Below, piece by piece: positions 12,646-15,945 of a stretch of 64,000 nt of DNA. The notes beneath the pieces were generated by a model. That model did not search any database and was not told the DNA's origin. It saw only the letters and a list, made by a program, of their open reading frames with translations. Numbering within the stretch: position 1 is the stretch's first letter; each line of letters starts with the position of its first letter. The position numbers were made by a program, and so were the translations under genes. Origin of the DNA: Verrucomicrobiota bacterium (lineage in GTDB: Bacteria > Verrucomicrobiota > Verrucomicrobiia > Limisphaerales > UBA1096); the NCBI GenBank assembly GCA_014382705.1, contig JACNJE010000090.1:1-64000 (forward strand). Reading direction: 5' to 3'.

Positions 12646-13512
12646 TCAAGCCAGCTCTCGCACCTTGGCCTCCACGGCATTGATGAGGTGGTCGGGCGTG
12701 GAGGTGCCTGCCGTGATGCCAAGCGTGCCCGCCTTCGGCAGCCACTCCGGGCGGATGTCGTCCGGTCCCTGGACATGATGCACCCTCCCGCAAAACCGAC
12801 GGCACGTTCGCGCGAGTTCATGCGTGTTGTTGCTGTTCGCCCCTCCCACCACCAGGATGATGTCCGATTGTTTTGCCAACGTCTCGGCTGCGTTCTGTCG
12901 TTGCTTGGTGGGTTGGCAGACGGTATCCACAAAACGAACCTCAGCTTCCGGAAAACGCGCCCGTATATGCTCCACCAAGGCCCGAACCCGGGCAACGGGC
13001 TGTGTGGTTTGCGCCACCACGCCGAAACGGGGACGCGAATCCAACGCGTCGATTTCTTCCCTGCTCAGGACCACATCGCTTTCTGGAAAATCCTCGGTGA
13101 GTCCGCGCACCTCCACATGCCCGTGACGGCCGATGATGACCGGGTGATATCCGGCTGCCACAAGGTCGCAAACCTGCTTGTGGGCGTAATGAACGAGCGG
13201 GCAGGTGGCATCCTTCAACGTCAACCCACCCCGGTGTGCCCGGGTGCGCGCCCGGTTTGAAGCGCCATGCGCGGTGATCATCACGGTTTCTGTTTCGACT
13301 GCCTCCGGTTGATCCTCGAACCTCACGCCGCGATCCCGCAACTCTTCGAGAACCGTGGCGTTGTGCACCAGTTCGCCCAGCACCGTCAGGGGGCGCGACC
13401 GCACCTCCCGCTTGGCCAGAGTGATGGCGTCACGCACCCCGAAACACATGCCGATGTGTTCCGCCCTTAAAATGGTTAATCTAACTTTGTGATGCAAAGT
13501 ATGTGCTGTCAT
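12646..13512 (-). CDS. ispH: 4-hydroxy-3-methylbut-2-enyl diphosphate reductase IspH
   Basis: The last enzyme of the MEP isoprenoid pathway. Three Cys residues that hold the [4Fe-4S] cluster are visible (GMCFGVRDA, KDATCPLV, DTVCQPTKQRQNA), together with VVGGANSNNTHEL and ITAGTSTPDHLI. It is 288 residues from ATG 13512. Upstream in-frame starts exist, and the conserved domain begins only near residue 17. An ACTTTG-N5-CAAAGT operator-like palindrome (13484-13500) falls in the first codons, so regulation by the neighbouring winged-helix protein is plausible. Confidence 0.93.
   Translation of the reverse strand: MTAHTLHHKVRLTILRAEHIGMCFGVRDAITLAKREVRSRPLTVLGELVHNATVLEELRDRGVRFEDQPEAVETETVMITAHGASNRARTRAHRGGLTLKDATCPLVHYAHKQVCDLVAAGYHPVIIGRHGHVEVRGLTEDFPESDVVLSREEIDALDSRPRFGVVAQTTQPVARVRALVEHIRARFPEAEVRFVDTVCQPTKQRQNAAETLAKQSDIILVVGGANSNNTHELARTCRRFCGRVHHVQGPDDIRPEWLPKAGTLGITAGTSTPDHLINAVEAKVRELA
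13484..13500. promoter_or_regulatory. ACTTTG-N5-CAAAGT operator-like palindrome, copy B
   Basis: ACTTTG-TGATG-CAAAGT lies between the winged-helix regulator gene and the conserved part of ispH. Its arms are the same as those of the larger palindrome at 14473-14507. Two copies flanking a regulator gene suggest that this regulator binds both. Confidence 0.5.
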
Positions 13513-13540
13513 TGGTTTTGCATGGTTGGTCATCATGGGA

Positions 13541-13852
13541 TCAATGGGTTTTTCGGGCCTGTTTTACGATGCCCTCGAGCAGGTCTACGTATCCGGCGAA
13601 GGCGTTCGTTCCATCCTCCGTCAACCGGCACGTGGTCAGCGGACGATTGTCGTGATACGACTTGGCCACGGAGACGTACCCTGTTTTTTGCAAGGTCCGA
13701 ATGTGCGTGATCAAGTTGCCGTCCGTCATATTCAGGGCATCGCGCATTTCGGTAAACGACATTTCCCGCGCGGAGGCCAGCAGGGACATGATCGCCATTC
13801 GGTTTTTTTCATGGATCACCCGATCCAGTTGCTGGAACGATTCCGGATTCAC
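13541..13852 (-). CDS. Winged-helix transcriptional regulator (HTH_34-like, MarR/ArsR fold)
   Basis: This 103-residue protein starts at GTG 13852 (then NPESFQQLDRVIHEKNRMAI). The core MSFTEMRDALNMTDGNLITH is the recognition helix region, followed by the wing (KSYHDNRPLTTCRLTEDG). This fits the small winged-helix family that is often encoded next to a membrane protein. The GTG overlaps the stop of the upstream membrane-protein gene by 4 bp, so the two are coupled. Predicted operators at 14473-14507 and 13484-13500 suggest self-regulation and possible control of ispH. The ligand is unknown. Confidence 0.85.
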   Translation of the reverse strand: MNPESFQQLDRVIHEKNRMAIMSLLASAREMSFTEMRDALNMTDGNLITHIRTLQKTGYVSVAKSYHDNRPLTTCRLTEDGTNAFAGYVDLLEGIVKQARKTH

Positions 13853-14475
13853 TCCGTGTCCAAAGGTTCCACGGTGAGTTTCAAATAGAAACCGTAGGCG
13901 ATGTTGATACCGCCGAAGCCGATCCCCATGACCCAATGGGCGGTGTTTTCATTGAGGAAAGGCATGAGCTCCATCCCGTGCGAAAGCAGGCATAGACAGC
14001 CGATGACGACATAAAACCATCCCAGCAACTTGATCCCTCGGCGCATGAAAAAACCGGCCGCATGCAGCGCGCCTCCATACAGAATCAACCAAAGAGCCGC
14101 CAAGCGGATGCTGTCCCTGGCCTCCGGCGGGTTTAAGGTCTCCAATACCCCCAGTGCCAAGCCGGCTGTCAGCAGCGGGATCATCGCCTGTGCCACGCGG
14201 CGCGTGGGCGGGGACCAGAAATTCTCCCTGCTTTTGAGTGCCTGCCGCCGGATCAGCAACAGGGCCGGGATGGCCGAGACCACTGCCACTACGAGCCAGT
14301 AGCCGGCAAAACGGCTCGGCCCAGTCTTGTCAATGGCGTTCGCAATTCCAGCGGCGACCAATCCCAGCGTACCCACGACAAAGGCCACGGGTGCCATGGC
14401 GCGCCGGTAGAGGCTGGCCTGTTCCATCAGGCGGCGGATTGTATTGAGATTGTCTTCAGCCCAGTTCGCGTTCAC
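13849..14475 (-). CDS. Polytopic membrane protein paired with winged-helix regulator
   Basis: This protein is about 208 residues from GTG 14475 (NANWAEDNLNTIRRLMEQAS). It has roughly six hydrophobic segments (VAFVVGTLGLVAAGIA, YWLVVAVVSAIPALLL, AMIPLLTAGLALGVL, LAALWLILYGGALHAAGF, FYVVIGCLCLL, WVMGIGFGGINIAYGF). I chose the GTG because it abuts the inverted repeat and keeps the conserved NTIRRLMEQ start. ATG 14514 is the alternative and would place the repeat inside the gene. It may sense or act with the regulator. The function is unknown. The track ORF to 15792 is mostly antisense to the sialidase. Confidence 0.72.
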   Translation of the reverse strand: MNANWAEDNLNTIRRLMEQASLYRRAMAPVAFVVGTLGLVAAGIANAIDKTGPSRFAGYWLVVAVVSAIPALLLIRRQALKSRENFWSPPTRRVAQAMIPLLTAGLALGVLETLNPPEARDSIRLAALWLILYGGALHAAGFFMRRGIKLLGWFYVVIGCLCLLSHGMELMPFLNENTAHWVMGIGFGGINIAYGFYLKLTVEPLDTE

Positions 14476-14507
14476 GGATTCACTTTGTAACGCAAAGTGA
14501 ATCCGTG
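14473..14507. promoter_or_regulatory. Large operator-like inverted repeat, copy A (contains ACTTTG-N5-CAAAGT)
   Basis: CACGGATTCACTTTG and its exact reverse complement are separated by TAACG, giving 15-bp perfect arms directly at the start of the membrane protein-regulator operon. The inner ACTTTG-N5-CAAAGT core recurs at 13484-13500. It is probably the self-regulatory site of the winged-helix protein. Confidence 0.6.
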
Positions 14508-14622
14508 CAAGCATTTTTTCCGGTTGTTGTTGGAAACAGCTTGAGGGGCAATGCCCTAAAATGGGCGAGTGTGATTGAATCCACTTGAAATAAGGGGCGA
14601 TGGAATCGAGGGTCTCCGGGCA

Positions 14623-15945
14623 GTGAAACCGTTTGATTCCATTATCGTGGTTGGTTTGTTGTGCAGCCCCTATCCAGTCAACGCCGAGAGTCCGCTTGTC
14701 GAGGAACTTTCGATCGGGGTGAAAACCCCCCTGAAGGTCCGCTTGGCCAAGCCGCCCCGCGGCTTGGTTGCCGATGCGAAGCTTGGCCTGCTGCGGCATC
14801 GCGTCGTGAACGGCCAGCTGCTGCACACCGCCCGGGAGGGAGTGCGCGGGTTGTTTGAGACGCGCGGTGTCCGCACCCCGAAAGGCGATTTGCTGCTGAT
14901 GTTTCCGGAGGGCAACCATTATGCCGCCGGTAGTGGGAAGGTGAATGACATGATCGCCTATCGCTCCAGCGACAACGGTAAAACGTGGCAAGGCCCGTCC
15001 ATCGCGTTTGACATCGATTACAGTCAGCACGGGTTCATCCCGCTGATCCCCCGTGGCGGCAACCGCATTTACGCCTTTGGCACGCAGCCGATTCCCAGCA
15101 AATACAGCCGGGAAAAGGGGAGGCATGAAAACACGCCGATTGGTTTTCGTTGGTCGGACGATGACGGCCACACGTGGAGCAAGGCCACACAGATCAGGCC
15201 GACGAACGATCCCGGCTTCCTCGGCATGTCGGTCACGCGGATGTGCGAGACCGATTCCGGGGCTTGGGTGATCGGCTCGCACGCGGCGGATTGGTCCAAG
15301 AATCCGCTCATCACGCAGCAGTACATTTTGCGCAGCGAGGACAAGGGCAAGTCGTGGACGTTGCTGCCGGGTAAACGGCCCGGTGGATGGTTCTCCCCGA
15401 AGTACAGCCGGATGGATGAAGGGCGGCCCATTTCGCTCGGCAACGGTGAGGTTTATTTCATGGCGAGGACGCCCACCGGCCGCATCTGGGAGGCGCGCAG
15501 CATCGACGAAGGCAAAACGTGGAGCGATCCAAAGCCATCGCCGCTGGTTCATCCCGACGCGCCGCCGATGGTCTTCCACTTGAGCGATGGCAAGACGCTG
15601 ATCGCGTTCCACCACAACCGGCACATCAACACGCAGTACGTCGGCCTGACCGGCAAGATGGACGGCATGCGTGACCGGGCGGAGATTTGGATTTCGTTGT
15701 CCAAGGACGGCGGACGGAACTGGAGTGAGCCGCGGTTTCTCTTCACCAACGCCACCCGCCCCAACCCGGCAAAGAACGGCTGGTTCAACCACAACTCATC
15801 CTACTTGGATGCCGTGATCGACGACGGCACCATTCACCTGTTCCTGCCGCACCTTTGGAATCGCGCCGTGTATATGCGTCTTGAGGAGAAGGACTTGGCC
15901 AAGCTGCCGACCGTCCAGCAATTGGCCAAGCGCTTGGCCAAGTGA
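14623..15945 (+). CDS. Exported BNR/Asp-box sialidase-like protein
   Basis: This 440-residue protein starts at GTG 14623, which gives a signal peptide (KPFDSIIVVGLLCSPYPVNA). Five Asp-box motifs mark a six-bladed propeller: SSDNGKTW, SDDDGHTW, SEDKGKSW, SIDEGKTW and SKDGGRNW. The family includes exo-sialidases and other secreted glycosidases. Catalytic residues were not assigned, so the exact substrate is open. The gene ends inside two tandem TTGGCCAA palindromes, so the last residues read QLAKRLAK before the stop. It converges with the membrane protein at 15951. Confidence 0.82.
   Translation: MKPFDSIIVVGLLCSPYPVNAESPLVEELSIGVKTPLKVRLAKPPRGLVADAKLGLLRHRVVNGQLLHTAREGVRGLFETRGVRTPKGDLLLMFPEGNHYAAGSGKVNDMIAYRSSDNGKTWQGPSIAFDIDYSQHGFIPLIPRGGNRIYAFGTQPIPSKYSREKGRHENTPIGFRWSDDDGHTWSKATQIRPTNDPGFLGMSVTRMCETDSGAWVIGSHAADWSKNPLITQQYILRSEDKGKSWTLLPGKRPGGWFSPKYSRMDEGRPISLGNGEVYFMARTPTGRIWEARSIDEGKTWSDPKPSPLVHPDAPPMVFHLSDGKTLIAFHHNRHINTQYVGLTGKMDGMRDRAEIWISLSKDGGRNWSEPRFLFTNATRPNPAKNGWFNHNSSYLDAVIDDGTIHLFLPHLWNRAVYMRLEEKDLAKLPTVQQLAKRLAK
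15922..15942. repeat. Tandem pair of the TTGGCCAA iterated palindrome at a gene end
   Basis: TTGGCCAAGCGCTTGGCCAA forms the last sense codons of the sialidase gene and is followed by TGA. It shows the palindrome pair supplying a C-terminal tail, and it lies between two convergent genes. Confidence 0.85.

Follow-up and report, generated by a model that had tools for sequence, protein, structure and literature searches.

The window, as we call the whole 64-kb stretch of DNA analysed here, appears to carry a hitherto undescribed switch controlling the supply of isoprenoids, consisting of a small winged-helix regulator of the HTH_34 family, a membrane protein encoded together with it, and two copies of a palindromic operator at the starts of their operon and of an ispH gene. 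We consider it likely that the regulator is a repressor which binds both sites, autoregulates its own synthesis and represses an accessory ispH, and that it receives its signal via the membrane partner. Comparative evidence argues strongly for binding of the regulator to the operator; the direction of control would be repression rather than activation, and the membrane partner would serve as input for the signal. To our knowledge few transcriptional regulators of the core isoprenoid pathway have been described and it is poorly known how bacteria match isoprenoid supply to the demand for undecaprenyl carrier, quinones and hopanoids, and with this module a regulator, an operator and a candidate sensor in the membrane become open to direct testing.

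All three genes are encoded by the minus strand; read along it, the membrane protein comes first, followed by the regulator and then by ispH. The membrane protein (positions 13849–14475, 208 residues, GTG start) has six predicted helices and an AlphaFold2 model with a mean pLDDT of 89.9, and its stop codon overlaps the start of the regulator gene. It matches no Pfam family above cut-off, SdpI families being absent from the matches at E 0.1, its model matches no PDB fold with an E-value below 0.001, and a comparison with PDB sequences gave a single weak match (E 0.12). The regulator (13541–13852, minus strand, 103 residues, GTG start) matches PF13601 (HTH_34) over residues 18–96 with an E-value of 2.8e-25 and 88.7 bits (cut-off 27) and is not assigned to the MarR family, the profile of which scores 21.4 bits, under its cut-off of 24.6. 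As a palindromic site fits a dimer, the regulator is probably dimeric. The ispH gene (12646–13512, minus strand), encoding a short second HMBPP reductase isozyme, most likely starts at the ATG at 13512, a start at 13536 being possible, and its product exceeds the cut-offs of both TIGR00216 (E 7.4e-74, 248.4 bits, cut-off 187.85) and PF02401 (E 5.3e-78, 262.4 bits, cut-off 24.5). The translation shows GMCFGV, DATCP, DTVCQ, GHVEV, QTT, NSNN and AGTSTPD, which may correspond to the cluster cysteines and the catalytic His, Glu, Thr, Ser and Asn of E. coli IspH.

Two exact copies of the pattern ACTTTG-N5-CAAAGT, neither of them assigned a strand, flank the membrane-protein/regulator gene pair. Operator 1 (14482–14498, core ACTTTGTAACGCAAAGT) sits within a palindrome with perfect 15-bp arms (14473–14487 and 14493–14507, together spanning 14473–14507), and its core is followed after 6 nt by the GTG with which the membrane gene begins (14475). 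Operator 2 (13484–13500, core ACTTTGTGATGCAAAGT) lies about 1 kb away at the ispH start, some 41 nt past the end of the regulator gene, and, should ispH start at the in-frame ATG at 13512, falls within its first codons. The layout proposed by the sequence-only reading, in which a 15-bp-arm palindrome abuts the start of the membrane protein-regulator operon, its core recurs about 1 kb away at the ispH start and the regulator gene lies between the sites, is therefore accurate in each respect. A genome-wide search agrees with it, as these two copies are the only exact ones in the 4,017,201-base genome, the base composition of which gives a chance expectation of 0.06, and a reversed control pattern has no copies in the whole genome. 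The 15-bp arms of operator 1 are particular to this genome and relatives keep the 17-bp core alone, with the consensus ACTTTGYRNYRCAAAGT. Just upstream of operator 1, TTGCAC (14505–14510, minus strand) is a possible promoter −35 element, for which the consensus of the relatives is TTGACA. Beyond operator 1 on the opposite strand lies a gene (14575–15945) the product of which resembles, by eye, a sialidase-type repeat protein; since about 75 nt separate the start of this reading frame from the operator 1 core, its divergent control from operator 1 is conceivable.

Homologues of the regulator were found in 103 of 146 relatives, about 100 of their regulator loci were retrieved, and the regulator, ispH and the sites were located. 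Matches of at least 15 of 17 positions occur at site 1, upstream of the membrane gene, in 76 of 84 distinct loci and at site 2, before ispH, in 72 of 91 distinct regulator loci, counts that lean slightly upward because the consensus was read from the same loci, the exact core being derived from the window alone. In the rest of the same loci, serving as background, no such match was found in 410,728 positions. The proposal had been made to depend on the motif recurring near orthologous regulators, and in the neighbourhoods of the relatives it does. Site 1 in most loci lies 5–9 nt ahead of where the membrane gene starts. When 88 loci are aligned, their profile consists of TTGACA, about 5 bases and then operator 1, which would be the position expected of a repressor operator. 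With the start codon so near to the TTGACA-like box and site 1, this arrangement suggests a leaderless membrane/regulator transcript. Moreover, the overlap between the stop codon of the membrane gene and the start of the regulator gene is found in 97 of 103 loci. Within the genus of the window, operator 2 is located inside an in-frame extension of ispH, so that an overlap of operator 2 with an ispH promoter is not required there. The extension encodes a conserved TLHHKV/TLQYKA stretch, and in most members of the genus an ATG in the same frame lies a few codons further upstream; in other families ispH starts downstream of site 2. Both operator positions are kept throughout the order. Several further families of the class keep them too, and there the membrane-regulator-ispH arrangement with its sites persists at about 47–55% regulator identity. 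In more distant families of the phylum, with regulators about 38% identical, an upstream site is found around 690 nt before the regulator in many loci.

The operator also accompanies ispH where the two genes have parted. In eight genomes ispH is detached from the regulator and nevertheless has an operator upstream of it. In four of these (G115, G030, G055, G063) ispH was relocated and the operator is found upstream of ispH at its new locus, with no operator left near the regulator in the four regulator loci. In G065 the operator adjoins ispH and no regulator was found in the assembly, which is 82% complete, and in G239, G311 and G338, from another family of the class, a divergent short ispH has an exact operator upstream. 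In addition, regulator and operator are distributed together. An exact site is carried by 50 of the 62 near-complete relatives that have the regulator and by none of the 17 that lack it (Fisher p = 6e-10), and among all genomes by 86 of 103 and 4 of 43, respectively (p = 1e-17), p-values that are indicative, as related genomes were counted as independent.

The ispH of the locus is a second, short, accessory isozyme. A long IspH of about 410 residues is present in 78 of the 79 near-complete genomes sampled, including the genome of the window, where it is encoded besides the short ispH at a contig edge (G000:C7:42-1136); PF02401 also finds both copies, and the long one is, by its length, probably of the cyanobacterial/plant type. 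Near-complete genomes without the regulator have the long IspH alone, with G101 as sole exception, and no IspH was found in G077. By this pattern of presence and absence the short IspH is gained or lost with the regulator, while the long IspH stays constant. The long IspH of the window's genome has no exact copy of the operator, both genomic copies being located elsewhere. The feedback control of isoprenoid synthesis that had been suggested from the sequence is supported in part. A connection of ispH with the regulator and its membrane partner through the operators is strongly supported by the conservation of the sites, the operators of detached ispH genes, the co-distribution and the replacement of ispH by mvaS described below; feedback on isoprenoid synthesis as such does not follow, since the target is a second isozyme and the long IspH of this genome has no exact site. 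The target thereby narrows to an accessory enzyme for the final step of the MEP pathway. The puzzle also arises why one order keeps two different IspH enzymes, only one of them under the switch.

What would surprise the specialist is an exchange of ispH and mvaS under one conserved regulator. In nine genomes from other families (G494, G466, G516, G399, G514, G528, G451, G470, G405) mvaS, encoding HMG-CoA synthase, comes immediately after the regulator, an identity supported by TIGR01835 in the three of the nine that were tested (E 1e-142, 1e-138 and 5e-150). As no PF02401 match, i.e. no IspH, was found in these nine genomes, they presumably rely on mevalonate. In three of the loci (L183, L187, L189) operators lie between the regulator and mvaS, and in the other six, which belong to one family, the site precedes the membrane gene and a short gap separates the regulator from mvaS. 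Since the mvaS-linked regulators are grouped with low support in the regulator tree, we make no claim of a single origin. As operator and regulator are conserved while the target switches between ispH and mvaS, isoprenoid supply would seem to be the output of the module.

How could such a switch operate? Briefly, the HTH_34 protein, probably a dimeric winged-helix repressor, would recognise ACTTTGYRNYRCAAAGT at operator 1, overlapping the promoter of the membrane-protein/regulator operon and thus bringing about autoregulation, and at operator 2, overlapping the start or the promoter of the gene for the accessory IspH isozyme. As the 103-residue regulator is without an obvious sensing domain, the signal is most likely supplied by the translationally coupled six-helix membrane protein, a role that, for want of a significant structural match, is read from the coupling of the genes. 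It would sense the condition of the membrane or of an isoprenoid lipid: probably, a shortage of carriers or membrane lipids derived from isoprenoids would cause the membrane protein to bind and sequester the regulator, and sequestration would relieve both promoters and lead to more IPP and DMAPP. In relatives using mevalonate the same module would act on mvaS and release it when precursors run short. A more general version, to which we give somewhat less than an even chance, is that the six-helix membrane proteins, as a new family, sense the level of a polyprenyl carrier or quinone and, via the HTH_34 repressor, sets the precursor pathway of its host. If true, one phylum would have a dedicated isoprenoid-supply sensor acting on an accessory IspH in the MEP pathway or on HMG-CoA synthase in the mevalonate pathway.

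Alternatively, regulator and membrane protein may form a generic autoregulated pair with a varying third gene, responding to a signal unrelated to isoprenoids, for example envelope or redox stress, with ispH and mvaS as effectors downstream of the response, an explanation that we regard as on the doubtful side and yet deserving serious consideration. In several loci of other classes the third gene has no known tie to isoprenoids; its product may be a B12-radical SAM protein, or else a large membrane protein or something different. The known isoprenoid enzymes therefore do not account for every output. In line with such a pair, three genomes (G081, G136 and G035) have extra exact operators (L122:2999, L120:3073 and L131:2979, respectively) near the start of genes for BchE-like B12-radical SAM proteins, those of L122 and L131 scoring over the TIGR02026 cut-off. 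In its favour also speaks that IspH is a [4Fe-4S] enzyme sensitive to oxygen (PMC8837944). However, ispH and mvaS are non-homologous genes of two alternative pathways, and their exchange is hard to explain without isoprenoid supply as part of the output.

Some further observations concern other loci. Where ispH or mvaS would be expected, the regulator is followed by a gene of the radical-SAM type at L193:3445-4860 (by Pfam) and from L053:3331 onward (by eye). Downstream of the regulator in distant families there is a recurring membrane protein with a YLEFPPLTRYV-like motif (L195:3932-5059, L210:3938-5062, L212:4767-5954); the one tested, of L195, matches no Pfam family. G377, a genome of the same class (L220, L221), contains 27 forward copies of the operator pattern, some near efflux-like genes, and these are possibly the motif of another regulator or a repeat.

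The regulator could also be an activator, or a dual regulator that forms a loop between the two sites, instead of a simple repressor, which appears unlikely to us. The distance between the sites is nearly constant across loci at about 1 kb, as looping would favour, a constancy that follows from conserved gene lengths. Furthermore, operator 2 may lie downstream of a promoter: TTTGAAC-N16-GGTC, or a close variant, is found a few bases ahead of it in 53 of 92 loci, 4 nt ahead in 49 (examples are L031, L022 and L082 and the detached loci L117 and L129), the element being absent from the genus of the window. An ECF-sigma regulon behind this element is not supported, as the element shows no clear genome-wide enrichment in 30 genomes (147 matches versus 130 for the reversed control), which leaves it at most a possible local, promoter-like role. 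Against activation speaks that operator 1 is placed between the TTGACA-like box and the start codon, the classic position for a repressor, and the stretch retrieved around each detached ispH gene contains one site and no second one, so that looping is unnecessary.

It is very improbable that the repeats act as RNA hairpins, as terminator or attenuator, and not as operators bound by a protein. Site 1 in the window's genome does fold at −26 kcal/mol owing to its 15-bp arms, but the long arms are not conserved, and site 1 stands beside a promoter-like box just ahead of a start codon. Moreover, the inner positions 7:11 of site 2 pair below chance (22 observed versus 40 expected), and this lack of compensatory pairing within the palindrome favours a DNA site and led us to reject the hairpin. 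Palindromes that happen to flank the regulator by chance or as an artefact of the neighbourhood can practically be dismissed, since, short as the motif is and not unusual as four matches in the window at two mismatches are (8 of 100 shuffles), the two exact copies in the genome far exceed expectation and both positions are conserved against an empty background.

The repressor with a sequestering membrane partner that we favour has a known counterpart, as SdpI sequesters SdpR. In architecture the SdpR/SdpI pair of Bacillus subtilis (PMC6818787), in which a small autorepressor likewise shares its operon with an integral membrane protein, is the nearest analogue. It differs in that SdpI confers toxin immunity and in gene order, protein families and target genes, and no homology of the membrane partner to SdpI was detected by Pfam at E 0.1 or by the PDB fold search. 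In the open-licence literature we found neither a description of an HTH_34 (PF13601) regulator of ispH or mvaS, an absence that is weak evidence, nor a dedicated ispH operator. Among proteins of solved structure, the regulator is closest in sequence to PH1061 of Pyrococcus horikoshii (PDB 1ub9, E 6.7e-11), which is labelled a hypothetical protein. Two IspH homologues that are not genetically redundant, LytB1 and LytB2, are reported for Mycobacterium tuberculosis, the accessible part of that report mentioning no linked HTH_34 regulator or operator pair (PMC4550268). Transcriptional control of isoprenoid supply tied to the envelope is found in Enterococcus faecalis, where CroRS affects mvaS and other mevalonate genes; CroRS, however, is a two-component system of kinase and response regulator, and its proteins are unrelated to those described here (PMC10952268). 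CrtR of Corynebacterium glutamicum is, similarly to the proposed repressor, a small winged-helix protein that represses isoprenoid genes as well as its own, and this MarR-type protein binds across the −35/−10 region (PMC5401885, PMC7432914). Whereas CrtR senses isoprenoid pyrophosphates itself and controls carotenoid genes (PMC5401885, PMC7432914), the regulator described here is an HTH_34 protein of 103 residues that has a membrane partner and is linked to the precursor enzymes encoded by ispH or mvaS.
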